Shown here: positions 3,498 to 41,870 of the stretch, in pieces
Numbering within the stretch: position 1 is the stretch's first letter
Layout: the number at the start of each line of letters is the position of its first letter
Source of the DNA: Syntrophobacterales bacterium
GTDB lineage: Bacteria > Desulfobacterota > Syntrophia > Syntrophales > UBA2192
DNA length: 51,297 nt
Direction: 5' to 3'
NCBI GenBank assembly: GCA_018053845.1
Contig: JAGPKU010000010.1
Coordinates: 1-51,297, forward strand
Translations under genes and position numbers: made by a program
Notes under the pieces: generated by a model
The model's input: the letters and a program-made list of their open reading frames with translations, nothing else
Database searches by the model: none
Told to the model about the DNA's origin: nothing

Positions 3498-3587
3498 ACG
3501 AATAGCCCATCGGCCCTCGCGGCCGCGCGAATAACGTTGCTGAAAAGCGAATCGAGTCACAACTCACCCACGCTGTCGGAGGTTCCT

Positions 3588-9500: not shown

Positions 9501-12500
9501 ACGATCCACCAGCAGATCGACAAGGCGAAGAAGTGGATGGGCGAGAACAAGTTTGCCGACGCCCAGAAGGAGCTGATCGTCGCCTCGAATATCAACAGCT
9601 ACTACCCGCCGGTCCAGCAGGCCAACCAGGAGCTGGGGACGCGCTGGAACAAGTACAACGCCGAAGTTCGCGACAAGGTCTACGAGGTCCGCTCGGCCAA
9701 CGAGAAGAAGGACTTCGACAAGGCGCTGGCCGTGGCGGCGGCGTGGCGGGCCTCGACGAAGCTCGATCCCTACGCGGAGAAGGAGCTCAAGCAGCAGGAG
9801 GACTGGGCGAGGCAGTGGAAGGCCCGGAAGGACAGCCAGATTGCGATCCTGAAGTCCGCCGGAGAGAAGGTGAAGGCCTACGACTACGCCGGGGCCCTGA
9901 AGCTCTACGACGAGGGGTTTGCCAACGGGCAGAACATCTACAACGGCGCCGAGCCCGAGTACAAGGAGGCCGTGGAGCTTCGGAGCCAGGCCTACACGAA
10001 GAACAAGCGCCTCGGAGAGCTCACGCCGCATATCAGGAACGCCGCCGAGAACAAGGATTCCTACTATGGCCAGACTCACGTCCTCGACGGCGCCCTGAAG
10101 AACACCGACGAGGCCATCGCCCTGCAGCCGACGAACGAGCAGTTGAAGACGTGGCGCGCGCAGATCGTGGCGCGGGCCGAGAGGACGAAGGCGGACAACG
10201 AGCGCATCGCGGCGGGGAGGAAGCATCTCGACGCGGCAGGCGGCGCGGAGAGGGCTTACCTCACGAACGAATCCTCCATCCAGGCGCGGCAGCTCCAGTG
10301 GGGCGAGAAGCTCGAGGAGCAGCAGCAGATCTACCTCACGACGGCGATCGAGAACTACCGGGCGAGCCTGCAGTACATCCCCGACGCGAACGTCGAGAGG
10401 AAGATCAAGGAACTGGAGGCCACGCTCGAGGGCCGGAAGAAGGTCCTGGAAAACTACCGGCTCTCGGTCGCGCTCAAGAACGAGGCCGACGCACTCGCCC
10501 AGCAGGCGACGAAGGACCCGGACATCCAGTCCGCGGCCCCGAAGTACGACGAGGCCGCTGCAAAGTACCGCAAGAGCCTCTCGCTTTATCGGCCCTCCAA
10601 CGCCGAGATGATCGAGCGCCAGGCGTGGAACCTCGAGTATGGGAAGCACGACCGCTGGGTCAAGAAGCACTGGGCCGACGGCCAGGCGCTGGAGAAGGAG
10701 GCGAAGTACACGGCGGCCCTGGCGGCCTACGACAAGGCCATCGCCTCGTTCCATCCCACGGTCGAGCAGAAGGACCGGATGTGGATCGTCGTCCACGCCC
10801 AGGATCTGCGCAACCGGATCAACGGGGCGAAGAACTGGCGGGCCGACGGCGAGGCCAAGCAGAATGCGGGCAGAATCCCCGAGGCGATCGCCAGCTACCG
10901 GCAGAGCCTGAAGCTCCTGCCCGATCCGGCCCTGGAGGAGCACGTGCGGATGCTGGAGGGCAAGCAGGCCGAGGCGGGCCAGAAGAAGGCCGCGGCGGAC
11001 AAACTGTGGCAGGAGGGCACGGCGCTCTTCAACCAGGGGCGGCCGAGCGATGCGCTCGCGAAGTTCAAGGAGAGCCTGGGTTACTGGTCCGATTCCGCTC
11101 GGACGAAGTACGTGGCGGACCTGGAAACCCGGCGGGCGAAGGCCGCGGCCCTGCGGGGCGAAGGCTCGGCGCTGCAGAGCCAGAACCGTATCAAAGAGGC
11201 CATCGCCAGGTACAAGGAGAGCCTGGCCCACTGGCCCGACCCGGCCCTGACGGCTCACATCGCCGCGCTGGAGAAATCACTCACAGGGGTCAAGCCCCCG
11301 ACCGGGACGCCCGGCGGCGTCGACGGGACATGGGAAGTCAGTTTCAACAACTACCACGGCAAGATGGAGCTCCAGCGAAGCGCAGGCGGATGGAGCGGGC
11401 GGTTGTGGCTCGATGCGCACCAAACGTGGGAGCAGCTGACGAACATCTCCTACGACCCGGGAACGGGGAGGATGGAGTTCACAAGGCCCATCTCCGGGGC
11501 GACCCAGCGCTACTCCGGTGTCCTTTCCGGGGACAGGCTCGAGGGGACCTTCACCCAGCAGAATTCCTCTGCGAAATATAGCTGGTGGGCGAAGAGGACC
11601 GCGGCAGGGGCCGCCGTGACGGCGGGGAGCGGCGCGACGGGAAGTTCCCCGGGGACGACGGCGCCGGCCGACACCGGCTTCTACCTCGTTGATCTGACGC
11701 CCTACGGAGGGAAAAAGTCTGCCGCGAGAACCGTCAAGGGCATTCAGGTGGACGACGGCTCGTGGATCCGACTCAAGGCGACGCACGAGAAGAAACTGCG
11801 GCTGGACATCCCGCTGCCCCAGAAAGTATCGGCAAGCGCCGTGGCCGTTGTGAGCAATCTCGATAACGCGCACAACGTGCCGGACAAGATGACGACCACC
11901 GTTCTGACCGTTCACACGACCTCGGGGGACCGGAGCTTCGAGATCAAGGCCGGCGTCCACTCCTCGGAGTGGAACCGGGGCGAGACCGGCGGCGCCACCC
12001 ACGCCTGGCCGAAGGAGACCAACATCGGGGGGCCCCGCTGGATGGCCGTATTCAACCTGCCGGCCGGCAGCGTCGTTACGGGCCTGCGCTTCGATCACCG
12101 GGACACGGACAGGAAGTACTACCACGGCGATGCCGCCCCGGGCTTCTGCCTGCGGGGCATCACGCTGGTCGGCTCGCCCGTCTCAACCGTATCCCCGGGC
12201 TCGGCGACGACCTCGACAGGCTCCTGGGCCGGGGCCTGGAGAAGCGACCCCGGGCCCGACGGCGAGGTCGTGACCTTCGACCTGTCCCAGGGCGGCAGCC
12301 GCCTCACGGGAACCTTCCAGGCCGATGTGCCCTACACGTCGGCAACCGGTGCCCGGCAAAAAGAGTCCTTCCGGGGCACCCTGGAGGGGACCGTGTCGGG
12401 CAGCCGCGTGACGGGGACCTTCCGGGAGTCGAGCGACACGAAGCCCACCGGGTCGTTCGAATTCACCATGGCCGCATCGGGAAACCTATTCACGGCGCTG

Positions 12501-12884
12501 GTGCGGGGAGAGGACACGAGCGACACCTACACGGTCCGCCGCTTCGGTTCCGCCGCTTCTTCCGGATCCGCCGTCAGCTCCGGACAGACGGCGGCGCAGT
12601 CCGTCACGGCGGAGATCACGAACCGCTCCGGGGAGAACACGCACATCTTCCCCGACGGCGAGACCTTCGGGCCGGGAAACCGGCTTGCCCCGGGGGAGAA
12701 GCGCAAGGTGGCGGTGAGCATGAAAGCCGACGGCTCGGTGACGTTCAAGGCCGGCCGCAACGGACAGGTCATGGCCACGAAGACCTGGCGGGGGGTGCCC
12801 GGCGACGCGTCGCGCGTGCCCGTCGTCGTCTTCGACGACGCCAACCCCTACGACAAGTTGACGGTGACCACGGGGCTCCGGTAG
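3588..12884 (+). CDS. Giant secreted multidomain protein (3098 residues)
   Basis: The ATG at 3588 is chosen over the upstream TTG at 3537 because GGAGG precedes it by five bases and the protein then begins with a clean signal peptide cut after ASA (residues 20-22). In order I see an alpha-rich region with a hydrophobic stretch at about 617-671; a Lys/Asp linker at 1237-1260; a cysteine-rich segment at about 1261-1385 starting with a thrombospondin-like WGECVRATKKQTRTV; four Ig/PKD-like beta units at about 1405-1805; many degenerate TPR-like helical repeats at about 1808-2565; a lipocalin-like barrel unit at about 2578-2672; a galactose-binding/NPCBM-like unit at about 2698-2865; a second lipocalin-like unit at about 2880-2987; and a short beta tail. 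No enzyme motif is visible. It is probably an extracellular or periplasmic scaffold. Domain names are by eye. Confidence 0.8.
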   Translation: MRRLITVIAALVLIVSASPASAQNQQVLQALKALNGMPESFSTPAKAEATAKAFFEMVQSTSGSENAIEVLKQIKRATPKAEWNEGCRRAENLLMHTVQQTLDGTIVETIQTRAGGKKLGSIHGYGYSGKWPIKPETQLTFDGDFDASFFGTELADTSPENREGIIQDVSKRLKAKLGTGPAGLGIVLNGYGWEGRADVYVTSAGKQWAIRQSMTRLYLIDPVTGRPVNITATPGALFAETQLRLLNKYYPGLFENGRLRENLTSEQIRRILMDDPRMGELWKFWLSGTRYGTGQAAAGVIDFTCHVSEVAEATTTLEQRTKVAKQVARAANVFVNAMDGAKLPWREFFSEGEMQFMRDCATLDRAKITYAEAAERRVNLLKRLKGRDWSAADIEAYDRAVTESQSALNDLRAAEGRVMAQAGGESAFVENAVKIMRRQAQVAHREFVLDVMGRPPAERARLLQQYESDLRALLDHYSKKKDVPQEAIQWAREALESVKELNRISNERSAALEGFGTKIRRVWEMFNEPVNTRENVRKLLGETPIGEALLNRIPEWAFASTRPPAITDIAFASPSKLVAETVWTQLNQPVNALMMLDLLWQLTDIWRDNTTTEVQKLTSTGGVVAMLVVPHLYLVPMVYHASLQGDPRQLTYVMACYICPPAMLPMLVESMGGRIVAGAKQALFQNELEAMFQASSFKPEPGTEPKDWAENRDAIRYTWVALNTELDSYGREGERNLAAYIRILASDTRSEIPLSQPKKMSGLQAIYLPGGVAKSFRAMIQDGDHKLFRENAALGNALAELQKFNCDRLVPYMDKPPAYCRYAWAESKSGIQLDLINNAFKPGEAERLQAEGKSGENIVRIVNAMLAQRAKLQDAVITQLAEAIILSFEEEKRARKIVELGLLDEILKELLAVGEELGIKEELLAAFQEALRKQEGVKVGTDELKKPEGPASQTAKAKEQIAMLADTWLKSYRQVNTTRRFLVGLAGGYGVPQSDLDRFMHGKPPLAVEPAKDAEIARVSQEVITATSKDVSAILFNFKGQSRAPNSLDAEAEGTLLQYLYTARMIELTAGITYGMVSLWTGGPGEKETPSAFADRARAELKRQLDMKYKTPLGSPPDFTPVLDRYWTLARGYAEKFAALREAYGGSFQVSIEGPTEVEAMKDVTLKIAAKRQGKPADEVLRDARVEWTVDRALRNTGAIWWFSPVEETVMNITVTVTREVAGKKVSASATHRLTVKKPKDDKKDDKKDDKGGDKKDDTKYVASCSFEYTDWGECVRATKKQTRTVKVKTPAGCVERYKPVLERDCTPPPTEQEKRHQYFNCLCRCSSGWAGHIGVWYDPEGKSVPECKSSGPCFGGAGAFGCTRRHFFVGPNDCAKGCWEAAFGKGTYDPAKADKMRKDENKKYKKPLKVTIKASKNPADFGDIVELTAETTEGSGGYKWTWGGCAQDAKDDRAKVLNSRDCKPCTASVTATDMDGDSASASLEVKCTALRVKLTKETPKESTIPIGGKATFLAEVFSGDKPASGSFSYLWEHNPDALFGDPKNPTYETKGGSQSRNTATFKKIGTTPVWVSVLKEVDGRKMTVGESEQIPIQAVSPKLKLSVSKKEPLIGEKVVLTVHEEPAMSNDLIAFWWEIKGDAANAGPEPNIPNQRSYSFKPKNVKPVSVTVHAKAKEDGSDLGQADASVTAKGYTVAIGEPRYLGPKPKIWKCDTQLGGACPGLVDVGDQQFAVHHDVFMKATVTPALSGARYRWAIDPAGSCGLPGAGDEIKMNCSETGTYTVTLKVANGDGDQVGEASRPVTISVSQKDLDGSKKAKEASDKLQKAKGLVAEGKLDEAIALANEAASLDPKNAEAKSLAQKWGGEKQTITQQLDKTKKLIAENRFDQAEEEFAPVRNLHPKYPPVVETEKLLRTKKDEYKKNVTDKLAGAKAKARKGDYDGAIKDAEDAAKLDPANRDAAATAQTLRKEKETIHQQIDKAKKWMGENKFADAQKELIVASNINSYYPPVQQANQELGTRWNKYNAEVRDKVYEVRSANEKKDFDKALAVAAAWRASTKLDPYAEKELKQQEDWARQWKARKDSQIAILKSAGEKVKAYDYAGALKLYDEGFANGQNIYNGAEPEYKEAVELRSQAYTKNKRLGELTPHIRNAAENKDSYYGQTHVLDGALKNTDEAIALQPTNEQLKTWRAQIVARAERTKADNERIAAGRKHLDAAGGAERAYLTNESSIQARQLQWGEKLEEQQQIYLTTAIENYRASLQYIPDANVERKIKELEATLEGRKKVLENYRLSVALKNEADALAQQATKDPDIQSAAPKYDEAAAKYRKSLSLYRPSNAEMIERQAWNLEYGKHDRWVKKHWADGQALEKEAKYTAALAAYDKAIASFHPTVEQKDRMWIVVHAQDLRNRINGAKNWRADGEAKQNAGRIPEAIASYRQSLKLLPDPALEEHVRMLEGKQAEAGQKKAAADKLWQEGTALFNQGRPSDALAKFKESLGYWSDSARTKYVADLETRRAKAAALRGEGSALQSQNRIKEAIARYKESLAHWPDPALTAHIAALEKSLTGVKPPTGTPGGVDGTWEVSFNNYHGKMELQRSAGGWSGRLWLDAHQTWEQLTNISYDPGTGRMEFTRPISGATQRYSGVLSGDRLEGTFTQQNSSAKYSWWAKRTAAGAAVTAGSGATGSSPGTTAPADTGFYLVDLTPYGGKKSAARTVKGIQVDDGSWIRLKATHEKKLRLDIPLPQKVSASAVAVVSNLDNAHNVPDKMTTTVLTVHTTSGDRSFEIKAGVHSSEWNRGETGGATHAWPKETNIGGPRWMAVFNLPAGSVVTGLRFDHRDTDRKYYHGDAAPGFCLRGITLVGSPVSTVSPGSATTSTGSWAGAWRSDPGPDGEVVTFDLSQGGSRLTGTFQADVPYTSATGARQKESFRGTLEGTVSGSRVTGTFRESSDTKPTGSFEFTMAASGNLFTALVRGEDTSDTYTVRRFGSAASSGSAVSSGQTAAQSVTAEITNRSGENTHIFPDGETFGPGNRLAPGEKRKVAVSMKADGSVTFKAGRNGQVMATKTWRGVPGDASRVPVVVFDDANPYDKLTVTTGLR

Positions 12885-29350: not shown

Positions 29351-30835
29351 ATGGACGAGCAGTTGATTCAACCTACGCCGTTGATCATCGGCTATACCGT
29401 TGTCTTCATCCTTGTATCCATCGGAATCGGCATCTACGCCAACAAGTACGCCAAGTCCGCCGAGGGCTTCTTCGGCGGCACGAAGGCCTTCGGCGGCATG
29501 GTCATCGGCCTGGCCTCGGCGGCAGCCGTCATGAGCGCCTTCGGGTTCATCGGCGGCCCGGGCCTCGTCTACAAGTTCGGCTTCACCTCCATCTGGATGA
29601 CGATCGCCTGCGGTCCCGGCTTCGCCTACGGCTACTGGGTCATCGGCAAGCGGATGCGGGCCATGGCCGAGGTGACCGACGTGGCGACCCTGCCCGACAT
29701 CGCCCGCGTTCGGTTCCAGAGCCAGGCGGTCCGCGGCATCCTGGCCATCGGGCTGTGCCTGGCGGCCATCGCCTACCTGTCCTCGCAGGTCAAGGGCGGC
29801 GCCAAGCTCATGAATCAGATGCTCGGCGTCTCCGAGGAGATGGGTGTCGTCATCATGTTCGGCACGACGCTCGCGTACATGCTCGTCTCCGGCATGTCCG
29901 GCTCGATCCTGACGGATGCCTTCCAGGGCCTGGTCATGCTGATCGGCGTGGCGGGCGTCATCGTGGCCTTCTTTGTCATGACGGGCGGCGATCTCATGGT
30001 CATCCAGAACTCGCCGCAGTTCGGCCCCACCTTCGTCGACGGCGCGGGGGCCATGCCCTTCCAACTCATCATCACCTTCGCCATGGTCTTCTTCATCGGC
30101 ACCATGGGCCAGCCCACGATGCTTTCCAAGATGTACGCCGTCAAGACGCACAAGGACCTCAAGGTTGCCGGCATCATGGGAGGCGTGACCTACGGCCTCA
30201 CCTCGCTCGTCTGGATCCTCGTGGGCTACGGGGCCATCTGGCTCGTCGCCACGGGCGCCGCGCCCCCCATCAAGGACCTCGACAAGGCGGCTTTCCTTTT
30301 CCTCTCCAAGACGGGCGGCATCCTGCAGGCCCTCGTCATGGCGGCGCTTCTGGCGGCCATCATGTCCACGGCGAGCTTCTTCATCTCCCTGGCCGCCGGC
30401 AACATCACCCGCGACCTCTTCGGCGCCTTCGGCCACGAGATGCCCCTGGACAAGCAGGTGATCTACGGACGCTGGATCCAGGTCGTCGTAAGCCTCTTCG
30501 CCATCGGGTTCGGCTACTGGGGCGGCCGCGCCGTGGCCATCCTGGGGACCCTGGGGTGGGGCTTCTTCGCGTCGGTGACCATCCCCACCTTTGTTATGGG
30601 GCTTCTGTGGAGACGATGCTCGAGAGAGGGGATCCTTGTGGGGCTCTTCTTCGCGGTCATCGCGAACATTACGCTTCCGATTCTCGAAAACTTCAACATC
30701 TACCGGTTGCCTTACCCCTATTATCTCTTCACGCTCGGGGGGGCGATCATCCTGACCACGGTGGTTTCCTTCTTCACGAAGAGCTGCGCCGGCGATAACC
30801 TGCCCGAGCAGCTCAAGCCGGTCTTCAAATTGTGA
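29351..30835 (+). CDS. Sodium:solute symporter family transporter
   Basis: The 494-residue protein has about thirteen membrane helices and the SSF pattern: KYAKSAEGFFGGTKAFGG near residue 31, the TM2-3 stretch LASAAAVMSAFGFIGGPGLVY, VTDVATLPDIARVRF, and the GYGAIW and AAIMSTASFFISLAAGNITRDLF segments further on. It should bring an organic acid or amino acid into the cell with Na+. AAAGGAGGGAGGG lies before the ATG. The substrate is unknown; a CoA-transferase and acyl-CoA genes nearby would suit a carboxylic acid. It is the last gene of a two-gene operon that ends at the hairpin at 30847. Confidence 0.9.
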   Translation: MDEQLIQPTPLIIGYTVVFILVSIGIGIYANKYAKSAEGFFGGTKAFGGMVIGLASAAAVMSAFGFIGGPGLVYKFGFTSIWMTIACGPGFAYGYWVIGKRMRAMAEVTDVATLPDIARVRFQSQAVRGILAIGLCLAAIAYLSSQVKGGAKLMNQMLGVSEEMGVVIMFGTTLAYMLVSGMSGSILTDAFQGLVMLIGVAGVIVAFFVMTGGDLMVIQNSPQFGPTFVDGAGAMPFQLIITFAMVFFIGTMGQPTMLSKMYAVKTHKDLKVAGIMGGVTYGLTSLVWILVGYGAIWLVATGAAPPIKDLDKAAFLFLSKTGGILQALVMAALLAAIMSTASFFISLAAGNITRDLFGAFGHEMPLDKQVIYGRWIQVVVSLFAIGFGYWGGRAVAILGTLGWGFFASVTIPTFVMGLLWRRCSREGILVGLFFAVIANITLPILENFNIYRLPYPYYLFTLGGAIILTTVVSFFTKSCAGDNLPEQLKPVFKL

Positions 30836-31910: not shown

Positions 31911-31950
31911 GGGGTCTGCCCCGCCCGCATGGGGGGCGGGCCCCTTTTTT
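31911..31950 (+). terminator. Terminator of the 3-hydroxyacyl-CoA dehydrogenase gene
   Basis: A 12-bp stem starting with GGGGTCTGCCCC and pairing with GGGGCGGGCCCC (two G-U pairs), followed by TTTTTT. Confidence 0.82.
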
Positions 31951-32003
31951 CTTCGCACAGCGTCCGTTTGTCCTTCACCCATGCCGCTGTTACATTGATC
32001 ACA

Positions 32004-32957
32004 ATGGGCACCGCCTCTTCTGCCGAAGCCGTCCGCTCCTTCGATCTGGCCGAGTATACGGGACCCGTGCGTGTCGAGATCGGGGGCGGCGCGATCCGCA
32101 TCGTCCGGGGGAAGAAGAAAGTCTTGATCCCCGGGGACGCCCTGCTCGGCATCCATCATCTCCCCTGCTCTTGGCGCGCCGGACGCTCCGGGCCGAGCCT
32201 TCGAATCCGGTTTGATTACGGACGCCCCGAACACCCCCAGAAAACGCAAATCGCGCTTGCCGCCGATGACCCGGTGCTTCCCGTTTTCCTCGAAGCCCTC
32301 GCGGAGCGTTTCCCGGCCCAGCTCCGCCTCGGTACCGACGAGAGCGAAAAAACGCGGATCCTGTCCGCGGGGCACCGGGGCCGCTACGGCCTGCACGCCC
32401 TGCACATCCTGACGCCGTCCGGGATCGTCACGGCGATGCTTATCGTCTTCGCCCTCATCCTCTCCCTCATCCTGGCCGAGTCGATGCCGGCCTCCTCCGT
32501 GGGCGACGAGACGCTGAGGGCCATACGGCGCGTGCTCCTCGGGATGGCGCTGATCCCGGCAGCCGGCATGGCGCTTGTGCTGGCGAAGCGGCTGATGGTG
32601 CTCCAAACCGACGAGCGGGGATTGACCGTGCGCCGGCTCTTCGGCCGTCTCCGGGTGCCCTGGCGGGAGGTCGAGGTCGCCGAGCCCCGCTCCGACGCCT
32701 TCAAGGTCTACAGGGGGCTGTTTTGCTGCGACTCGGACCGCGTGGAGGTGGTCGCCTCCCGGAGCCTTGCGGAAATCCCCCTGCTGCGGGCCGGCAGGAG
32801 GGTCACGACGGTGCGCATGCCTCTCGAGGAAGCGGGGCCTTTCTTCCGCGAGCTGTATTACCGGGGCAAGGTGACACGGGAGACGGCCGAGGCCTTCGGC
32901 GGCTTCATCCCGCGCCTGCCTGCAGGGTCTTGCCCGAGAACGCCGCAGGCAGGATGA
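32004..32957 (+). CDS. Membrane protein with PH-like C-terminal part, unknown function
   Basis: The 317-residue product has a soluble N-terminal half (about 1-135), two membrane helices (about 143-162 and 174-196) and a C-terminal part that begins LQTDERGLTVRRLFGRLRVPW, a beta pattern typical of bacterial PH-like domains behind a helix pair. The N-terminal half also contains a PH-like stretch (VRVEIGGGAIRIVRGKKKV). No named family. The ATG at 32004 has no clear ribosome site; the upstream ATG at 31929 lies in the terminator stem and was rejected. Its last 53 bases overlap tail-to-tail with the gene on the other strand. Confidence 0.65.
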   Translation: MGTASSAEAVRSFDLAEYTGPVRVEIGGGAIRIVRGKKKVLIPGDALLGIHHLPCSWRAGRSGPSLRIRFDYGRPEHPQKTQIALAADDPVLPVFLEALAERFPAQLRLGTDESEKTRILSAGHRGRYGLHALHILTPSGIVTAMLIVFALILSLILAESMPASSVGDETLRAIRRVLLGMALIPAAGMALVLAKRLMVLQTDERGLTVRRLFGRLRVPWREVEVAEPRSDAFKVYRGLFCCDSDRVEVVASRSLAEIPLLRAGRRVTTVRMPLEEAGPFFRELYYRGKVTRETAEAFGGFIPRLPAGSCPRTPQAG

Positions 32958-35265
32958 AGCGCTCTTTGCGGCCCGGGACCCGGAGCAGGATCTCCCTGCC
33001 GAGGGAGGCGCCCTTGAGAAGCGGGATCTTCTTTCGCTCGGAGAAATCAAGCGGCAGATAGGCCGAGGCCGGGGGCGCCGGCGGCAGCAGCCCCATCCGC
33101 ATGTAGGTCTCCGCGATCAGCTCGGTGCAGAAGATGCTTCGATAGAGGGGCTTGCGGGGCCACCAGCGCAGGAAGAACCGCATCTGGATCACCCGCCGGA
33201 TCACCTCGATCTGGGGAGGGAAGGGCAGACGGTGCACCTTGTAGATGTAGTCGAACAGTGCGCGGATCATCTCGGGGCTCCGGGCAACCCGGAGCTGCCG
33301 CCAGGCGTAGACGTCGGTCTCGTAGGTCAGGAGCCGCTCCCGGAGGGAGACGAGCTGGGGGCCCCCCTTGCGGAACCCCAGGATCCGGTCCGTGATGGAC
33401 TCGAGAGGGGTCGATTCCCAAAGCAGGGCATCCTCGTGGTCGGGCATCTTTACGACGAGCCCGGCATGGGTCCAGTTCTCCGAGGGGTGGGGTTGCTGGT
33501 CCCGGTCGAGGTATAGGCCCTTGAAGAGCACGATGTCCCCCGTCTGGAAGCGCAGGGCCACATCGTCGTAAAGCACGGTTGTCTCCTCGCGTACGGGCAG
33601 CTCGACGGTGAACGTCGATCCTTGCCCCTCTTGCGAGTCGACGCGGATCCTGCCGCCGTGCAGCTCAAGGAGCCGTCGCACCACGGACAGGCCGATGCCG
33701 AGGGACGGCTCGCCCAGCGTCCCTTCCCGGGCGACTCCGCTTGCCCGATCGAAGATGCGGGGAAGGATCTCGGGCGGGATCCCGATCCCGCGGTCCTGAA
33801 ACGAGACGAGGGCCCACGAACCTTCTTCCCTTTCCACGGGCCGAAGCTCGATGCGGACATCGCTTCCGGGCCGGGAGAACTTCACGGCGTTGAGAAAGAG
33901 CTGTCTGCAGATCTCCGCGAAATGAACCGGGTGGGCGAGCACCGGCACGGGCCGGTTCGGAAGCGACATCTCGACGGAGATGCTCTTCATCGCCGCCATC
34001 TCCTTGAATTCCCCGCGGCTGCGCTCAAGGAAGTCGGCCAGGTTCACCGGCTCCATGTCCTGGCGATAGGTCTCCGCCTCCAGCCGGGTCGCTTCCTGGA
34101 GGCGGTCGATGAGCGCCAGGAGACGTGACGTCCTGGCGTGGATTTCGGCGTTTGGCCCTTCCTCTTGGAACGCCGTCAGCCGGTGGATCGCCTGGATCGG
34201 CCCCCTGAGATCCTCCGTGACGATCCGCATCAGATCGTCCTTTTCGCGGCCGAGCTTCTCCATCGTCTCCATCTGGCTCTGGACCGTTTGGGTCGCCTCG
34301 AGGATGTCGCGGTTGATGAGGTTGAGGATCCGGTTCTTCTCGTTGAGTTCGCGCGTCTGCCTCCGCACTTCCCGCCTCAGCAGGTACCAGTTCGCCAACA
34401 GGGCAAGGAACAGCAGCCCCGCGCCGCCGCCGACGAGTGCCTTGAGCAGCCAGGGCGGCAGCAGTCTTTTCTCCCGCAGCCCCCACTTGTCGGAGAGCGC
34501 GGCGATGTCTTCCTTCCGGATTTTCGCCAGCCCCGCCTCGACGAGATCGAGGGTCTCGCGGTTTCCCTTGCGGAAGGCCGCCCGCAGGGGATGGGTGGCG
34601 AGGTCGGTGATCACGCGGAACTGCCCCCGCGCATCGTGCTTCGAGAGGAAGTAAAAGGCGACGGGGTAGTCGACGGCGAAGGCGACGATCTCGCTTCGCA
34701 GGGCGCTCATGACCACCTCTTCGCTGTTGGGGTAGAGCTTCAGCCGCAGATGGGGAAGGTTGTACTGCATGTACTCGGCGGCGTAGTGATCGCGGCTCAC
34801 GCCGACGATGACGGGCGTGGATGCGAGATCCGATACGGACTGGACGTCGAGTTTGTCCAGGACAAAAAGAGACAGGGTGTCGTCGAGAAAACCGGGAGAG
34901 AAGTCGAGATAGGCGCTACGGGGGTCCGAATAGAAAAGACCGGCGTGGAAATCGGCCCTTCCGTCGCGGACCCTCTCGATTGTCTCGTCGAGATCGCCAA
35001 GGTAGAAGCGGATGGCATGACCGTTCCGGGCCGCCCAGAGGTGCCAGAACTCAACGAGGATCCCCTGCGGCGCTCCGTCGCGATCCGCAAAGGAGAAGGG
35101 CGGAGCGTTTCGCTGGGAGGCGACGACAAATGTTCTCCCGCCTTGCGCCTCGGTGGATCGAGGATTCCCGTCCGCGGCGTGAGGGGACGTCAAGACCAGC
35201 GCGGCCGCCGCAAGGGTGAGCGACAGAAACCACCGGGATCTTGCCTTTGCGTGCCTATCCGTCAT
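32905..35265 (-). CDS. Fusion of solute-binding domain, degenerate histidine kinase and permuted papain-like domain
   Basis: The 786-residue product has a signal peptide, a periplasmic solute-binding domain of family 3 (about 41-265: FVVASQRNAPPFSFADRDG, then repeats of the lobe motif), one membrane helix (about 270-297) and a coiled coil. The next part resembles a HisKA domain, but the H-box reads VTEDLRGPIQAI and the phosphate-accepting histidine is Glu351. A HATPase_c domain follows with DRGIGIPP and GIGLSVVRRLLELHGG. The C-terminal 230 residues look like a YiiX/DUF830 permuted papain fold: GDIVLFKG, His600 in THAGLVV and Cys713 in FCTELIAE. GGAGGG lies eight bases before the ATG at 35265. 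No response regulator gene is near. Autophosphorylation on the usual residue is not possible, so the signal output may be the papain-like domain. Confidence 0.85.
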   Translation of the reverse strand: MTDRHAKARSRWFLSLTLAAAALVLTSPHAADGNPRSTEAQGGRTFVVASQRNAPPFSFADRDGAPQGILVEFWHLWAARNGHAIRFYLGDLDETIERVRDGRADFHAGLFYSDPRSAYLDFSPGFLDDTLSLFVLDKLDVQSVSDLASTPVIVGVSRDHYAAEYMQYNLPHLRLKLYPNSEEVVMSALRSEIVAFAVDYPVAFYFLSKHDARGQFRVITDLATHPLRAAFRKGNRETLDLVEAGLAKIRKEDIAALSDKWGLREKRLLPPWLLKALVGGGAGLLFLALLANWYLLRREVRRQTRELNEKNRILNLINRDILEATQTVQSQMETMEKLGREKDDLMRIVTEDLRGPIQAIHRLTAFQEEGPNAEIHARTSRLLALIDRLQEATRLEAETYRQDMEPVNLADFLERSRGEFKEMAAMKSISVEMSLPNRPVPVLAHPVHFAEICRQLFLNAVKFSRPGSDVRIELRPVEREEGSWALVSFQDRGIGIPPEILPRIFDRASGVAREGTLGEPSLGIGLSVVRRLLELHGGRIRVDSQEGQGSTFTVELPVREETTVLYDDVALRFQTGDIVLFKGLYLDRDQQPHPSENWTHAGLVVKMPDHEDALLWESTPLESITDRILGFRKGGPQLVSLRERLLTYETDVYAWRQLRVARSPEMIRALFDYIYKVHRLPFPPQIEVIRRVIQMRFFLRWWPRKPLYRSIFCTELIAETYMRMGLLPPAPPASAYLPLDFSERKKIPLLKGASLGREILLRVPGRKERFILPAAFSGKTLQAGAG

Positions 35266-36025: not shown

Positions 36026-37807
36026 TCAGTCCGACTTGAAGAAGTCGTTGACCAGCGCGAGGTACTCCGCCAGCAGCACTTTGCTCACGACGAAGATGTG
36101 GCCCGCGTTCTTCTCGATGAGGCGGTTCAGCCCGCCGCGGGAGACGCCGATGTTCTTCCCGATCTCGCCCCAGAGTTCGCAGGAGACGCAGGAGCCCGTC
36201 GGCGCGATGGGGTCGCGGGTGCCGCGGTAGCAGAAGATGAGGACGCCGGCCTCGTCCAGGGCGCCCATCCGCACGGGCTTGCCGTCCAGGTCGGGGATCG
36301 AGGAGGGCAGGGCGTAGGTGCCCTCGACGAGCGCGTTGCCGAGGAAGAACCGGCTGATCCACTCCCGGTGCGCCCGGGCGGGGAACTTGGTGCCGTGGGT
36401 GAGCCAGTAGAGAAAGGGCGCCGAGTCCTCGATGGCGCCGGGCCGGTAGGCGCGTCCGTAGAAGCCCATCGACACGGTGTACTGCACGCCGGGCTGGATC
36501 TCGTTCATCCCCGCCTCGATGACGTGGGGCGGGATGTTCACCTCCCCGTAGAGCTCCTTCATGAGCAGGGGGTCGTACTCCTCGCGGATGACCTTGCGCA
36601 TGGCGGCATGTCCGCTGTCCCTGTCGTCGAATTTGACGGGGGTGGCCATGACGGCGATCTTCCAGATGTCCATGGGCTCGCCGCGGGCCATGCACTCCTC
36701 GGCCCGCCGCGCGAGGTAGGGCAGCATGAGGGTGCCCGCCATGCAGTAGGCCATGATGTAGACGGCGGCCCCGGGGTGTCGCTTCTGGATGATGTCAAGG
36801 TAGGCGTCGGGGACGGTCTTGCCGTAGAAGTCCAGCCCGAGGTTCGCCTCGGCGGGGCCCGGGTCGCCGTGGTCCACGAGATAGACGTGGTAGCCCTCCC
36901 GGAGCATTCCTTCGACGACGGATTTCCCCTGGGCCAGGTCGAAGATCTCGGGCTTGTTGATCATCGGCGTGGCGAGGTAGACGACCTTGCCGTTCGGCTC
37001 CGTCCCCTTCGGCAGGGGGTAGTGACGCAGGGTCACCGAGTGCAGCCGTGAGCCCTTGATCACCTCGTAGGGCATGCAGCCGATCCTGCCGCCCATGAAG
37101 CGATCGGAGAAATCGCGGATGTCGAAGGCGTTGTGGCGCCACAGGGCCTCGATGCGGGCGCGCCCCTCTTCCAGCCAGGTGCCGAGGGACATCCCGTCGC
37201 TGCCGTCGGGGTTCTTCTTCATGAAGGGCATGTCGTCGATGGGCTGCTCCGTGATGAGCACCACGAGCGACTTCAGGAGGTCCTTCATGGCTTTGAGGCG
37301 CGTCAGACCCAGCGAATTGTAGGAGAGCTCGAGCCATCGGAACTCCTTCATGCAGTTTCGCAGGAGCTGCTTGCCCTCCTCCGACGTGGAGACCTCCAGC
37401 GCGACGCGCGGATCGAATTTCCCGTTGCGCATGAAGCAGCCGCACAGGTTGTACAGGAGCCTGGCGTAGGTCTGGTAGATCCAGCTGTTCATCTCGGCGA
37501 AGGCGTCGGGGTTGCGCCCCGCCCTCGTGGCGATACGGGCCTGCGTCTTGATGGGGCCCGTCAGGGTGGCTTCGATGAGATGGGCCTGCCAGCCCGCCAG
37601 AGCGGCCAGGGGCCCGAAAAGCAGCGGCTGGCCCGCCATGGTCTTCAGAAGCTCCCGGTACAGGAAGAGGGACCGGATCTGGCCTCCCGCCAGCTTGCTC
37701 TTCCAGGGCATGGCCGATGTGTACCCCTCCACGTTGTCGGCCGGCGTGCGGCCGACGAGGGAAAGAAGCTCTCGGGCCGATATCCTCTCCGCGCTCTTTT
37801 TCTTCAT
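36026..37807 (-). CDS. PhaC-like polyhydroxyalkanoate synthase homologue with altered box
   Basis: The 593-residue protein has the size of class I PHA synthases: an N-terminal region of about 250 residues followed by an alpha/beta-hydrolase domain. The nucleophile box reads AYCMAGT (Cys355) where synthases have GxCxGG. The other triad residues are Asp532 (RGTRDPIAP) and His570 (NAGHIFVV). ATPMINKPEIFDL and VYLVDHGDPGPAEANLGLDF near residues 283-330 are in the style of PhaC. AAGGAG precedes the ATG by eight bases. It lies outside the main pha operon and may polymerise other monomers or act as a thioesterase or hydrolase. Confidence 0.82.
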   Translation of the reverse strand: MKKKSAERISARELLSLVGRTPADNVEGYTSAMPWKSKLAGGQIRSLFLYRELLKTMAGQPLLFGPLAALAGWQAHLIEATLTGPIKTQARIATRAGRNPDAFAEMNSWIYQTYARLLYNLCGCFMRNGKFDPRVALEVSTSEEGKQLLRNCMKEFRWLELSYNSLGLTRLKAMKDLLKSLVVLITEQPIDDMPFMKKNPDGSDGMSLGTWLEEGRARIEALWRHNAFDIRDFSDRFMGGRIGCMPYEVIKGSRLHSVTLRHYPLPKGTEPNGKVVYLATPMINKPEIFDLAQGKSVVEGMLREGYHVYLVDHGDPGPAEANLGLDFYGKTVPDAYLDIIQKRHPGAAVYIMAYCMAGTLMLPYLARRAEECMARGEPMDIWKIAVMATPVKFDDRDSGHAAMRKVIREEYDPLLMKELYGEVNIPPHVIEAGMNEIQPGVQYTVSMGFYGRAYRPGAIEDSAPFLYWLTHGTKFPARAHREWISRFFLGNALVEGTYALPSSIPDLDGKPVRMGALDEAGVLIFCYRGTRDPIAPTGSCVSCELWGEIGKNIGVSRGGLNRLIEKNAGHIFVVSKVLLAEYLALVNDFFKSD

Positions 37808-37911
37808 GGGGCTGCTCCTTGCAGGTCAGCGTGCGGGCCTTTCACGGGCCAGGGCCTCGTCACGGGATCCGAGCTCCGGGACGAAGGACAGACTGCCGTT
37901 AACCCTTCCAT

Positions 37912-37965
37912 GCAAAAGCCCGACCAACCCGGGCCGTTCACGGCGGCTTCACGGTCGGGCGGGCG
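37912..37965 (-). terminator. Possible terminator of the methyltransferase gene
   Basis: On the minus strand CCCGACC, an inner GCCG-TGAA-CGGC hairpin, then GGTCGGGCTTTTG. The stem begins within the last codons of the methyltransferase gene. The long inner loop makes it doubtful. Confidence 0.35.
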
Positions 37966-38827
37966 GACGGACAGGCGTTTTCCGCGATTCATTCCCGGCA
38001 AAAAGAAGGTGGACGATCCGGTTGCCCAGGACGGACATCGCCTGGGGGGGGAAGAAGTTCAGCCATCCCCAGCGCTCGCGGTGGTGCTCCAGGACGTTGC
38101 TCTCGCCCAGGACCTGCAGGCCGCAGCCCCAGGTCTCCATTTCCCGGCAGTCGCTCAGGGCCCAGCGGAACTCGAGGCTGCCCTGCGCGATTCGGGACAG
38201 GCAGGGGTCGTAGCGGCCCATGCCGAGGGCGCAGGGGGCAAGCATCTCGAGCAGCATCTGCGCCCCCGGGAAACGCGCCGAGATGTGCCCGAAGACGGAA
38301 CGGACCTCCTCCTCGGGGAAGTACATGAAGAGCCCCTCGGCGAGAATCAGGACGGGTTGCCTACCGGGTGCGATGGGACCGAACGTGGCGGGGTCCGTCA
38401 CCGATCCGGCGATGCAGCGGTAGCGCTTTGTTTCGCGGAAAAAGATCCGGCGCAGGGCGACGACCTCCGGCAGGTCGACTTCGAACCAGCGGATGCTCCC
38501 GTTGTCGAGGCGGGAAAACCGGGTGCTCAGGCCTGCCCCGAGGTTGATCACGACGGCCCGGGGATGCCCGCGGATGAAGGCCGCCGTCGCCTCGTCGAGC
38601 AGTTTCGTGCGGACGGCGATTCCCGTCTGGGTCATCCAGGCCCCCTCGAATTTGGAGAAGTCGTAATCGAGATTCTCGCAGATCTCCAGGGCGATCGGGT
38701 CCCGGACGATCGCGTCGGGACGTCGGGTCTCGACCGCGCGGGCCCAGAGGGGGATCAGCAGGGTCTCGCAGACCCCGGTGAGCCGGACGGGCTCTTTCCA
38801 AGGCCGGTGAAGGATTGCCGGTTTCAT
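37949..38827 (-). CDS. Leucine carboxyl methyltransferase-like SAM-dependent methyltransferase
   Basis: The 292-residue protein matches the LCM/PPM-type class I methyltransferases of bacteria: an early SAM-side Arg-Asp element (VRDPIALEI), the glycine motif VVINLGAGLSTRFSRL (93-106), the acidic ribose-binding FEVDLPEV (115-122) and VLILAEGLFMYFPEEEV further on. The natural substrates of bacterial members are mostly unknown; polyketide or small-acid O-methylation are options. No good ribosome site is seen before the ATG at 38827. It is followed by the PhaC-like gene on the same strand 141 bases on. Confidence 0.82.
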   Translation of the reverse strand: MKPAILHRPWKEPVRLTGVCETLLIPLWARAVETRRPDAIVRDPIALEICENLDYDFSKFEGAWMTQTGIAVRTKLLDEATAAFIRGHPRAVVINLGAGLSTRFSRLDNGSIRWFEVDLPEVVALRRIFFRETKRYRCIAGSVTDPATFGPIAPGRQPVLILAEGLFMYFPEEEVRSVFGHISARFPGAQMLLEMLAPCALGMGRYDPCLSRIAQGSLEFRWALSDCREMETWGCGLQVLGESNVLEHHRERWGWLNFFPPQAMSVLGNRIVHLLFAGNESRKTPVRPPARP

Positions 38828-39062
38828 GATGCTCGGTGCCGGTAGTCCGGAATCGGGTTGGGTCCGGGGTTGACCGCTGAATGGGTCCGAAGGGTCGGAC
38901 CGGCCTCAACTGCATCCGGGGCATGCGCCCCGTCTTGTCGCGTCGCGTCCTGCCGCAGGTCGAAGGGTCGGTCGGAGAGCTGTCCGCAAGAGGATGTCGG
39001 ATAACCAGTTCTTATCTAACACGATTCTTCGATACAAGCAAGACGTTGTAACGCAGGCAAAA

Positions 39063-39088
39063 GGCCCCCGCAGACACTCCGGGGGGCC
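39063..39088 (-). terminator. Terminator of the pha operon
   Basis: On the minus strand GGCCCCC-x-...-GGGGGCC closes a stem of seven to eight G-C pairs around an 11-base loop, followed by TTTTGCC. It lies 34 bases behind the stop of the maoC-like gene. Confidence 0.7.
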
Positions 39089-39121
39089 GGGAGAGAGGCA
39101 CGGAAATGGTTGTTGCGCCGG

Positions 39122-39550
39122 TTACTTCTTCGCCGCCTTGGGCGCCATGATCACGGCTTCCCCATCCACGAGGAGGGTGCCGTCCTGGTTGACGCAGGTC
39201 GTCCGGAGCTTCACGCGGTTTTTCTCCGCCAGCTTTTCCGTCACCTCCACGCGGGCCGTCACGGTGTCGCCGATCCGGACGGGGGCCTTGAACTCCATGG
39301 TCTGGCTCAGGTAGATGGTCCCGGGGCCGGGCAGCTTCATGGCGAGGACGGCCGAGATGAAGCCCGCCGAAAGCATCCCGTGGGCGATCCGGCCCTTGAA
39401 GAAGGTGTTCTTCGCGTAGGCCTCGTTGACGTGGGCCGGGTTGAAGTCCCCCGTGATCCCGGCAAAGAGGTAGACATCGGTCTCGGTTACGGTCTTGGCC
39501 GTCTCCGCCGCATCGCCGACATTCATCTCGTCAATCGTCTTCCCGATCAT
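39122..39550 (-). CDS. phaJ: (R)-specific enoyl-CoA hydratase, MaoC/PhaJ type
   Basis: The 142-residue hot-dog-fold protein has the hydratase-2 signature GDFNPAHVNEAYA with Asp35 and His40 at the same five-residue spacing as in Aeromonas PhaJ, and FKGRIAHGMLSAGFIS after it. It turns trans-2-enoyl-CoA from beta-oxidation into (R)-3-hydroxyacyl-CoA, the monomer for PHA synthase. GGGGGG lies close to the ATG. It is the last gene of the pha operon, behind the GAF protein by 67 bases, and a terminator follows. Naming it PhaJ rests on motif and context; a general MaoC dehydratase is the alternative. Confidence 0.85.
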   Translation of the reverse strand: MIGKTIDEMNVGDAAETAKTVTETDVYLFAGITGDFNPAHVNEAYAKNTFFKGRIAHGMLSAGFISAVLAMKLPGPGTIYLSQTMEFKAPVRIGDTVTARVEVTEKLAEKNRVKLRTTCVNQDGTLLVDGEAVIMAPKAAKK

Positions 39551-39578
39551 CGTTCCCCCCTTTGGTCTCTTTTTCCTT

Positions 39579-39606
39579 GAGCCTGATGCCTGATGCCTGT
39601 GACCTG
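39579..39606. repeat. Heptad array (NNGCCTG)x4
   Basis: Units GAGCCTG, ATGCCTG, ATGCCTG, TGACCTG, between the GAF gene stop and the phaJ ATG, inside the pha transcript. Confidence 0.65.
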
Positions 39607-39617
39607 CGGCGCAGCCG

Positions 39618-40655
39618 CTAGAACCAGCTCTTGAAGATCCAGACGTTCTCGCGCAGATCCTTCACGTCGTCCCTCAGCATCGCCATCAGCTGCATGTTCT
39701 GGATGGCCACGCCGCCCATGTAGGCGATGGCGTTGACGAACTGGATCTCGTCGTCCGTGAAATCCCGGGGCACGGCGCTGTAGAGCCGAAGCACGCCGAT
39801 GACCTCTTCGCGGGACTTGATGGGCACGCTGAGGATCGTGACGATGCCCTCTTCCTTCTTCTCCTTGCGGTACTGGACGCCGGCGTCGGTGGCGGCATCC
39901 TTCACCACCACGGGTTTCCCCTGGAGGGCCTGGGCGATGCTCTTCTCCGCCGAGATGGGGCCCTTCTTGAGGTACTTCTCGGAGAGGCCGTAGCTGGCGG
40001 CGAGCCGCAGCGTCACGCGGTTCTCGTCCAGCAGGCGGATCGTGGCCGCCTTTACGGAGAGGGCCTTGGCCACATCCTCCGTGAGCGTCTGCAGGATCGT
40101 CTTGATGTCCGTGCTTGCCGTGATGCTGGCCGCCATGCCGAGGAAGATCCGCGTAGTGTTCCGCAGCTTCTCGATCAGGCAGGCCTTCTGGATCGCCATG
40201 CCGCCCTGCTCGGCGAGCACCGTGAGAAACTCGATCTCCGTCTCCGAGAAGTCCCGGATGTCGGCCGTGTAGAGCGTCAGGCACCCGATCACGTCATCCT
40301 CGGACTGGACGGGGACGACCAGGATGGAGCCGATCCCTTCCTTGACCTTGGACTCCCGGTTCTGGACGCGCTCGTCGTTCTGGGCGTCCCGGTAGTGGAT
40401 GAACCCTTCCTTCTTCAGCAGCTTCATCGTCGGCGCCATGCGGCTCGGCGCGGCGTGCATGTAATTTTTTGAAAGCCCCGTCTGCGCCGCGGCGATGTAC
40501 TGGTCTTCCGCCTCGTCAGAGGCCAGGAACAGGCAGGCCGCCTTGGCCTTCATCGTGTCGACGGCGGACTGCACGATCATCTCCAGGAGCTTGTCCCGTT
40601 CGATCGTCGTTCCCAGGGCCCTGCCGACCTTGCTGATTGCCTTGATGTAGTCCAT
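39618..40655 (-). CDS. Tandem GAF-domain protein in the pha operon
   Basis: The 345-residue product consists of two GAF domains (about 18-160 and 185-330) with no output domain. Each ends in the same style: GIGSILVVPVQSEDDVIGCLTLY and GIVTILSVPIKSREEVIGVLRLY, then an Asp-Phe-x3-Glu-Ile helix, so the halves are an internal duplication. GAF domains bind small ligands or join protein partners. GGGAGA lies before the ATG, which is 21 bases after the phaC stop. Its fixed place between phaC and phaJ suggests that it senses something relevant to PHA storage, or scaffolds granule proteins; this is inference. Confidence 0.85.
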   Translation of the reverse strand: MDYIKAISKVGRALGTTIERDKLLEMIVQSAVDTMKAKAACLFLASDEAEDQYIAAAQTGLSKNYMHAAPSRMAPTMKLLKKEGFIHYRDAQNDERVQNRESKVKEGIGSILVVPVQSEDDVIGCLTLYTADIRDFSETEIEFLTVLAEQGGMAIQKACLIEKLRNTTRIFLGMAASITASTDIKTILQTLTEDVAKALSVKAATIRLLDENRVTLRLAASYGLSEKYLKKGPISAEKSIAQALQGKPVVVKDAATDAGVQYRKEKKEEGIVTILSVPIKSREEVIGVLRLYSAVPRDFTDDEIQFVNAIAYMGGVAIQNMQLMAMLRDDVKDLRENVWIFKSWF

Positions 40656-40676
40656 GGTCTTTCTCCCTTTCCGGGG

Positions 40677-41870
40677 TTAGTCCCCTTCGGCCGTCGCCCC
40701 GGCCTTTTTCTTCCTGGAGGCGGTCTTCTTCGTGTCGCCGTTCACCGGCTCGGGCGCCTCGTCGCGCTCCGTGAGCCATCGGATGATCTTCGGGCCGAAC
40801 TGTCTCTGCGTCTTGGAACTCACGTAGATGCCGATGTGGCCCGTGTCGAGGCAGAGGTCCTCCTTGTCGGTGCTGCCGATCTTGCTCGTGATCTGGTCGC
40901 AGGCCGCGGGCGGCACGAGGTGATCGTACTTGCCGTAGATGTTGAGCACGGGCATGGTGATGTTCTTCAGGTCCACCTTCTTGCCCCCGAGAACCAGCTC
41001 GTTCTTGATGAGCCGGTTTTCCCGGAACATCCACTGGATGAATTCGCGGAAGGCCTCGCCCGGCAGATCGGGGCTGTCGAAGATCCAGCGCTCCATGCGG
41101 ACGAAGTTCTCCACGAAGTCCTTGTTGTGGATGTTCTCCAGAAACCCCACGTACTTGTCGATCATGAGCCGCGCCGGGTTCAGGAGAAGGAACCCAAGGT
41201 TCATGATGTCGCCGGGGATGTTTCCGTAGGAGGCCACCAGCTTGTCGGGGTCCAGCGAGCGGGCCCAGACGTTGAGCAGCCCCGCGTCGTGGTCGAAGTT
41301 CGTCGGCGTGACCGTGAGCACCAGGTTCTTGACCTTCTCCGGGTGCAGCGCGGCGTAGATGACGCTCATCGTCCCGCCCTGGCAGATCGCCATGATGTTG
41401 AGACGATCCAGGCCGTGCTTCTCCAGGATGAAATCCACGGCGCCGTCGATGTAGCCGTTGATGTGATCGTCGAGGTTCAGGAACCGGTCCTTGCGGGTCG
41501 GGTAGCCCCAGTCGAGCATGTAGATGTCGAGGCCCGCGTTGAGGAAGGTCTCCACGACGCTGCGGCCCGGCTGCAGGTCGAGCATCGTCTCCCGGTTGAC
41601 CTGGGCATAGACGATGAAGAGCGGCGTCTTGAGCGAGGGTTCCGTCCTGGGGTGGTAGTGCTTCAGCTTGACGCGGTCCTCCTGCCAGACGACGTCATAG
41701 GGGGTGACGGCGATTTCCGTCTCCAGCGGGCTCAGGAGAACCTCCCTGGCCTTCCGGAGCTGGTCGTAGAACTTCGCCGTGTCGCCGGCCACCCGGGCCG
41801 CGATCAGATCGGCGGCCATGACGTAGGGGGCCATCATTTCGGAGAGGCGGGCTTTCTTGTCACTTCCCAT
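40677..41870 (-). CDS. phaC: Class III polyhydroxyalkanoate synthase, catalytic subunit
   Basis: The 397-residue enzyme polymerises (R)-3-hydroxyacyl-CoA into PHA at the granule surface together with PhaE. Its triad is Cys163 (AICQGGT), Asp316 (YGKYDHLVPP) and His345 (DTGHIGIYVS). The spacings of 153 and 29 residues are those of Allochromatium PhaC (Cys149, Asp302, His331), and the length suits class III. YMLDWGYPTRKDRFLNLDDH near residue 120 is also typical. The C-terminus ends in a Lys-rich tail beyond the usual length. Its start overlaps the phaE stop by 11 bases, so the two subunits are translationally coupled. Confidence 0.95.
   Translation of the reverse strand: MGSDKKARLSEMMAPYVMAADLIAARVAGDTAKFYDQLRKAREVLLSPLETEIAVTPYDVVWQEDRVKLKHYHPRTEPSLKTPLFIVYAQVNRETMLDLQPGRSVVETFLNAGLDIYMLDWGYPTRKDRFLNLDDHINGYIDGAVDFILEKHGLDRLNIMAICQGGTMSVIYAALHPEKVKNLVLTVTPTNFDHDAGLLNVWARSLDPDKLVASYGNIPGDIMNLGFLLLNPARLMIDKYVGFLENIHNKDFVENFVRMERWIFDSPDLPGEAFREFIQWMFRENRLIKNELVLGGKKVDLKNITMPVLNIYGKYDHLVPPAACDQITSKIGSTDKEDLCLDTGHIGIYVSSKTQRQFGPKIIRWLTERDEAPEPVNGDTKKTASRKKKAGATAEGD

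Follow-up and report, generated by a model that had tools for sequence, protein, structure and literature searches.

Overall organization of the fused gene

The window, a 51,297-nt stretch of contig JAGPKU010000010.1 from a Syntrophobacterales bacterium, encodes, on the reverse strand at 32905–35265, a protein of 786 residues in one uninterrupted reading frame. The frame starts with ATG and stops at 32905–32907; its position, strand, and length were confirmed exactly. All features of the gene given below lie on the reverse strand.

From the N-terminus to the C-terminus, the chain is composed of a signal peptide (residues about 1–33; 35167–35265), a family-3 solute-binding domain (residues 47–262; 34480–35127), a transmembrane helix (residues about 273–295; 34381–34449), a long and strongly conserved linker helix (residues 301–342; 34240–34365), a DHp/HisKA-like hairpin (residues 343–408; 34042–34239), a HATPase_c domain (residues 446–559; 33589–33930), and a permuted papain-like domain of the NlpC/P60, YiiX/BcPPNE type (residues 566–765; 32971–33570). 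A first-pass annotation of this DNA had proposed the same order in one chain, which our analysis bears out.

The signal peptide has a basic start followed by a hydrophobic stretch, with a predicted helix at residues 4–25, and orthologues have a hydrophobic segment too. The transmembrane helix is evident from hydropathy in all six full-length proteins, and is followed by a basic stretch (RREVRRQTR) that obeys the positive-inside rule. With one transmembrane helix and then this basic stretch preceding the kinase modules, the kinase modules and the papain-like domain are predicted to be cytoplasmic, where the first-pass annotation had also placed the C-terminal domain. The linker helix is part of a longer predicted helix (residues 281–352). 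A structure model of the full-length chain has a pLDDT of 54.9 and a pTM of 0.35, too poor a quality to guide the assignment of domain contacts, and was set aside.

Distribution and gene neighborhood

The C-terminal domain is found in 7 of 155 genomes of the order Syntrophales. The full chain is present in six of them: the window genome, two genomes of the same genus (G001, 80% identity; G006, 77%), and three genomes of another family (G046, G047, and G085; 42–44%), hereafter the second family. The seventh carrier (G039) is broken by a contig end and is not counted among the six full-length proteins. Because five further genomes from two Syntrophales families encode the full-length chain, an assembly fusion or frameshift is ruled out as its origin. 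In a scan of a named genome collection, the C-terminal domain also appears in Syntrophaceae, Smithella, and deltaproteobacterial metagenome-assembled genomes. Four other genomes of the window genus lack the gene, indicating that its distribution is patchy.

Wider samples of the phyla of the window and of Paenibacillus contain no further confident members beyond Syntrophales and Paenibacillales (the latter described below). The viral contigs searched contain no relative, an anti-phage defence library gives just weak HATPase matches, and the sole match in plasmids is weak, standalone, and in Nonomuraea. This actinobacterial relative of the papain-like domain (Nonomuraea gerenzanensis, L076:4001–4633) lies behind an ABC-type solute-binding protein gene, with no kinase beside it.

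Within the window, the fused gene has no operon partner. An HPP-family gene lies divergently upstream, and a convergent open frame (31929–32957, forward strand; 342 residues, no Pfam match) lies downstream and shares 53 bp with the 3′ end of the fused gene. In G001, a relative of this frame sits beside the fused gene (L037:8134–9045); G006 has none there. The fused gene is accompanied in both families, at a distance of a few kb, by a closely similar sodium:solute symporter gene (window 29351–30835, forward strand; L034:11230–12001). In two of the three second-family genomes, the fused gene adjoins a gene for an M28-family peptidase that has a hydrophobic stretch at its N-terminus (L036:9704–10720; L034:2830–3828). 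Neither the third genome nor the window genus has this neighbor, which is not counted as part of the system.

Two other regions of the window are recorded here. Among the reverse-strand genes at 36026–41870 are those of a PhaC-like alpha/beta hydrolase (40677–41870), a double-GAF protein, a leucine carboxyl methyltransferase-like protein, and a 593-residue protein that Pfam does not recognize; they are possibly a polyhydroxyalkanoate-type cluster. At 3537–12884, the forward strand contains an open frame of 3115 residues starting with TTG, inside which the other strand contains an open frame of 1525 residues.

The sensor domain

The periplasmic domain scores 66.3 bits against the Pfam family SBP_bac_3 (PF00497; cut-off, 26.4 bits; E 3e-18). 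Its nearest relatives are the sensor protein of PDB 3h7m (E 1.8e-13), ancestral amino-acid-binding proteins, and BvgS. Residues R116, which is invariant, and D199, which is Glu in one protein, align with an Arg and an Asp of amino-acid-binding solute-binding proteins. The Arg and the Asp of family-3 solute-binding proteins hold a bound amino acid by its alpha-carboxylate and alpha-amino groups. With R116 and D199 at the amino-acid-holding positions, an amino-acid-like ligand is a reasonable guess, and the ligand is probably small and amino-acid-like.

The phosphoacceptor histidine is lost

The DHp region is predicted to form a helical hairpin. No HisKA match in the window protein reaches the Pfam cut-off, and the G047 orthologue has a weak match at the same place (E 1.2e-4; 22.5 bits, below the curated cut-off of 26.9). 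When the window protein is aligned with ordinary kinases, its V-T-E-D-L falls under M-S-H-E-L, and Glu351 (34213–34215) falls under the H of SHELRTP. The alignment and the weak HisKA match together indicate that residue 351 occupies the phosphoacceptor position. The window protein thus has Glu351 where the H box of a sensor histidine kinase has its phosphoacceptor His.

The residue at this position is E, E, and Q in the window family and Q, R, and R in the second family. None of the six full-length proteins retains the His. The first-pass annotation had named a homologue with His at 351 as evidence against its reading, and its proposal passes this check. That annotation was right that Glu351 of VTEDLRGP stands at the phosphoacceptor place, but the Glu itself is not conserved. 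Gln or Arg in others of the six proteins rules out a functional phosphate mimic. The conserved feature is the loss of the His, not a meaningful Glu.

Sensor kinases with an SBP_bac_3 domain, including BvgS, the 3h7m protein, and three proteins in our data (L012, L013, and L015), share with the window chain the order of periplasmic family-3 domain, transmembrane helix, DHp, and HATPase. Unlike the window chain, the latter three have no papain-like domain, and they retain the His (MSHELRTPL) and intact ATP boxes, indicating that loss of the His accompanies the presence of the extra domain.

The HATPase_c domain of the window protein is readily recognized (Pfam E 6.7e-24), and all three ATP-binding boxes, N (LNAVKFS), G1 (D-R/H-GIGIP), and G2 (GIGL), are intact in this protein and throughout the full-length chains of its genus. 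In the second family, the N of the N box is replaced by S, the DxGxG motif is lost, the G2 box contains an Arg (GIRL), and Pfam barely detects a HATPase (E 0.08, 0.08, and 1e-5). The ATP-binding boxes are therefore degraded in three of the six proteins, indicating that ATP binding is inessential to whatever the chain does. The earlier description of an ATP-bound pseudokinase with its motifs kept fits the window genus, but not the second family, where the N and G1 boxes are gone, and an ATP-gated pseudokinase is thereby ruled out as a general rule.

The papain-like domain

As a single sequence, the C-terminal 230 residues have no match in Pfam, NCBIfam, or the PDB. In particular, the domain does not match Peptidase_C92 (PF05708), and a Paenibacillus relative scores 19.6 bits, below the cut-off of 27. 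A family profile, in comparison, matches BcPPNE (PDB 3kw0) with an E of 2e-5, and of 3.7e-8 after addition of the Paenibacillus relative. The predicted structure of the domain, which is of middling confidence (mean pLDDT 63), agrees with the profile match. It is superimposable on 3kw0 (Z 12.2; 144 residues, 3.3 Å), on YiiX (2if6; Z 9.8), and on the T6SS effector TseH (6v98; Z 6.5), the next match having a Z of 3.5; Foldseek gives an E of 6e-6.

Residues His600 (33466–33468), Glu617 (33415–33417), and Cys713 (33127–33129) align with His49, Glu64, and Cys154 of BcPPNE, and are predicted to be the catalytic His, the third triad residue, and the nucleophile, respectively. A His-Glu-Cys triad has been described for BcPPNE and YiiX (PMC3142127). 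All three residues are invariant in 15 sequences, comprising the full-length fused proteins and standalone relatives. The papain-like fold with His600 and Cys713 that had been suggested at first reading is thus confirmed by both the profile search and the predicted fold, and Glu617 completes the triad.

Besides the fold and the order of the triad, the domain shares with BcPPNE-type enzymes a Ser/Thr before the His, and its standalone Paenibacillales relatives are equally small and without a membrane segment. It differs from them in falling below the C92 cut-off, in being attached to a receptor, and in residues around the active site. Tyr127 of BcPPNE, the signature Tyr of NlpC/P60 proteins, aligns with Phe682 in a badly predicted region (pLDDT under 50), suggesting that catalysis may differ or be weak. 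The acidic residues Glu67 and Asp68, which hold the lysine in BcPPNE, correspond to Pro620 and Leu621. These substitutions, taken together with Phe682, suggest that the substrate is probably unlike that of BcPPNE.

Known enzymes of the permuted type work on lipids or acyl groups. A fatty acid occupies the active site of YiiX, and a lysine that of BcPPNE (PMC3142127); Tox-Act1 cleaves phospholipids (PMC12994826), and LnsA has a part in the N-acylation of lipoproteins (PMC7387801). By analogy, an acyl or lipid group at the membrane is our best guess for the substrate.

Conservation of the modules

Among the six full-length sequences, which are few, the identity between the two families is 52% for the sensor, 51% for the linker helix, 49% for the papain-like domain, 31% for the HATPase, and 27% for the DHp. 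Comparisons inside the genus give the lowest dN values for the linker helix (0.02–0.05) and the papain-like domain. All modules are under purifying selection, which is strongest on the linker helix and the hydrolase. Nearly every measurable dN/dS is ≤0.26 (about 0.13–0.26 for the HATPase), the two exceptions, DHp (0.57) and the transmembrane helix (0.49), being in short regions. Judged from these substitution patterns, the gene is not decaying. The pattern fits a receptor that depends on its sensor, transmission helix, and enzyme but not on kinase chemistry.

Standalone enzymes are encoded next to receptors in Paenibacillales

The scan of named genomes also identified a standalone relative in Paenibacillus spiritus (L046), 36% identical over the domain. 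The standalone enzyme is present in 11 of 150 genomes in a sample of the family and gives 22 strong matches in 346 genomes in a sample of the order, amounting to 26 distinct genomes. The standalone enzymes are 32–38% identical to the window domain. Four of them were tested and contain no hydrophobic segment, suggesting that they are cytosolic, like the fused domain.

The enzyme gene is located directly upstream of a 7TMR-DISM receptor gene in 26 of the 26 genomes, which are related and do not represent 26 independent events. The two genes usually overlap (gaps mostly −44 to +19 nt). Pfam searches with seven partner receptors detect 7TMR-DISM_7TM in all seven; six of them also have kinase domains, and the other has GAF-GGDEF. 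The remaining partners were recognized by sequence resemblance only. The kinase boxes, where read, keep SHELRTP, SHELKTP, or AHEINTP, indicating that the enzyme need not be the sole output in Paenibacillales. Two of the partners are short (L073:5978–8215; L074:6401–8611); in these, 7TMR-DISM is directly followed by one kinase unit, and the first kinase and receiver of the longer hybrids are missing.

The kinase and GGDEF outputs of the Paenibacillales receptors, and the further type of receptor joined by fusion in Syntrophales, point to one theme, namely that the enzyme subfamily works with transmembrane receptors. The subfamily looks like a dedicated partner of transmembrane receptors that is fused to a dead kinase in Syntrophales. 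The first-pass annotation had held that a separate gene for the C-terminal part in relatives would speak against its proposal. Such genes do exist in Paenibacillales, yet their tandem arrangement with receptor genes in all 26 genomes strengthens the link from receptor to enzyme rather than refuting it.

A model for the fused receptor

We favor, with some reserve, a model in which the window protein is a single-chain, ligand-gated transmembrane receptor-enzyme whose substrate, met at the cytoplasmic face of the membrane, would be of the acyl/lipid or amide kind. The periplasmic family-3 domain would bind a small ligand, and the ligand-induced change would travel through the one transmembrane helix and the conserved long helix. 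The dimeric histidine-kinase fold, no longer able to phosphorylate, would receive the change and serve as a scaffold, and the enzyme would target a lipid or acylated molecule at an acyl ester, thioester, or amide group. We infer the dimerization, the gating, the ligand class, the enzyme activity, and the substrate; what the analysis shows directly is the order of the domains, the missing His, the differing state of the ATP site, the intact triad and fold, and, in another phylum, the pairing of standalone enzyme genes with receptor genes.

At about even odds, the model extends to a class of receptor-coupled permuted papain-like enzymes. In Paenibacillales, the enzyme would be a cytosolic protein encoded in tandem with a 7TMR-DISM receptor; in Syntrophales, it would be fused to a solute-binding receptor whose dead kinase does no more than carry the signal. 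There, much as in receptor guanylyl cyclases, a ligand outside the cell would exert direct control over an enzyme directed at lipids or acyl groups.

Kinase-dead homologues can also work on partner two-component proteins, as DivL does (PMC4211667) and as the ChrS pseudokinase reportedly does (PMC9491836), and about 20 other kinase matches are present in the window genome. The dead kinase could then pair with or dock on another kinase or a response regulator and control it, the papain-like domain providing a side activity or an input. We consider this unlikely, because no kinase or regulator gene adjoins the fused gene in the window and the DHp, which in DivL has a conserved docking patch, is the worst-conserved module between the families (27%), whereas few parts are conserved as well as the enzyme domain.

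To a similarly small degree, we credit the proposal that the papain-like domain has no enzyme output and instead serves as an inner-side sensor, which binds a lipid or ligand and gives the receptor its input. The fatty acid in YiiX and the lysine in the BcPPNE active site (PMC3142127) are compatible with binding, and in Paenibacillales, where the receptor kinases are intact, the enzyme could be an input. However, a binding domain would not need the Cys, His, and Glu that are invariant in 15 sequences, and, the kinase being dead, the Syntrophales protein would be left without an output. Least probable of all is an old histidine kinase losing its function while its sensor or hydrolase alone still matters, since, although the DHp and HATPase diverge fastest and the ATP boxes are lost in one family, the frames are open in six of six genomes, the kinase modules are still under purifying selection, and no lineage is seen with the kinase fold deleted.

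Implications and comparison with known systems

Histidine kinases are usually taken to signal by phosphate transfer. In the receptor-enzyme that we favor, the kinase fold seems to survive as a mechanical connection to an enzyme of another kind. If so, ligand-to-enzyme coupling could be measured in a single protein, and the travel of a signal through the DHp/HATPase fold could be tested without phosphorylation. In addition, the receptor-linked subfamily of Paenibacillales places permuted papain-like enzymes whose role is unknown in a functional context. Our literature searches, which covered few subscription papers, turned up no account of this architecture. Each part is known, but, as far as the searched literature shows, the way they are combined, how that combination evolved, and the receptor-linked enzyme subfamily have not been described.

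DivL of Caulobacter is a precedent for a dead histidine kinase kept as a conformational module (PMC4211667). As in the window protein, the kinase fold is kept, the phosphoacceptor His is replaced, and no autokinase activity is expected. However, the input of DivL is a response regulator and its target is CckA, whereas the window chain has an enzyme attached and its DHp surface is not conserved.

The 7TMR-DISM operons of Paenibacillales tie the same enzyme subfamily to a transmembrane receptor. They differ from the window protein in having two genes instead of one, another receptor type, and an intact partner kinase or GGDEF domain.

The animal receptor guanylyl cyclases are composed of an outside ligand domain, one transmembrane helix, a pseudokinase domain, and then a catalytic domain. 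The resemblance of the window chain to them is one of design only, as their kinase fold and their enzyme are unrelated to those of the window chain.
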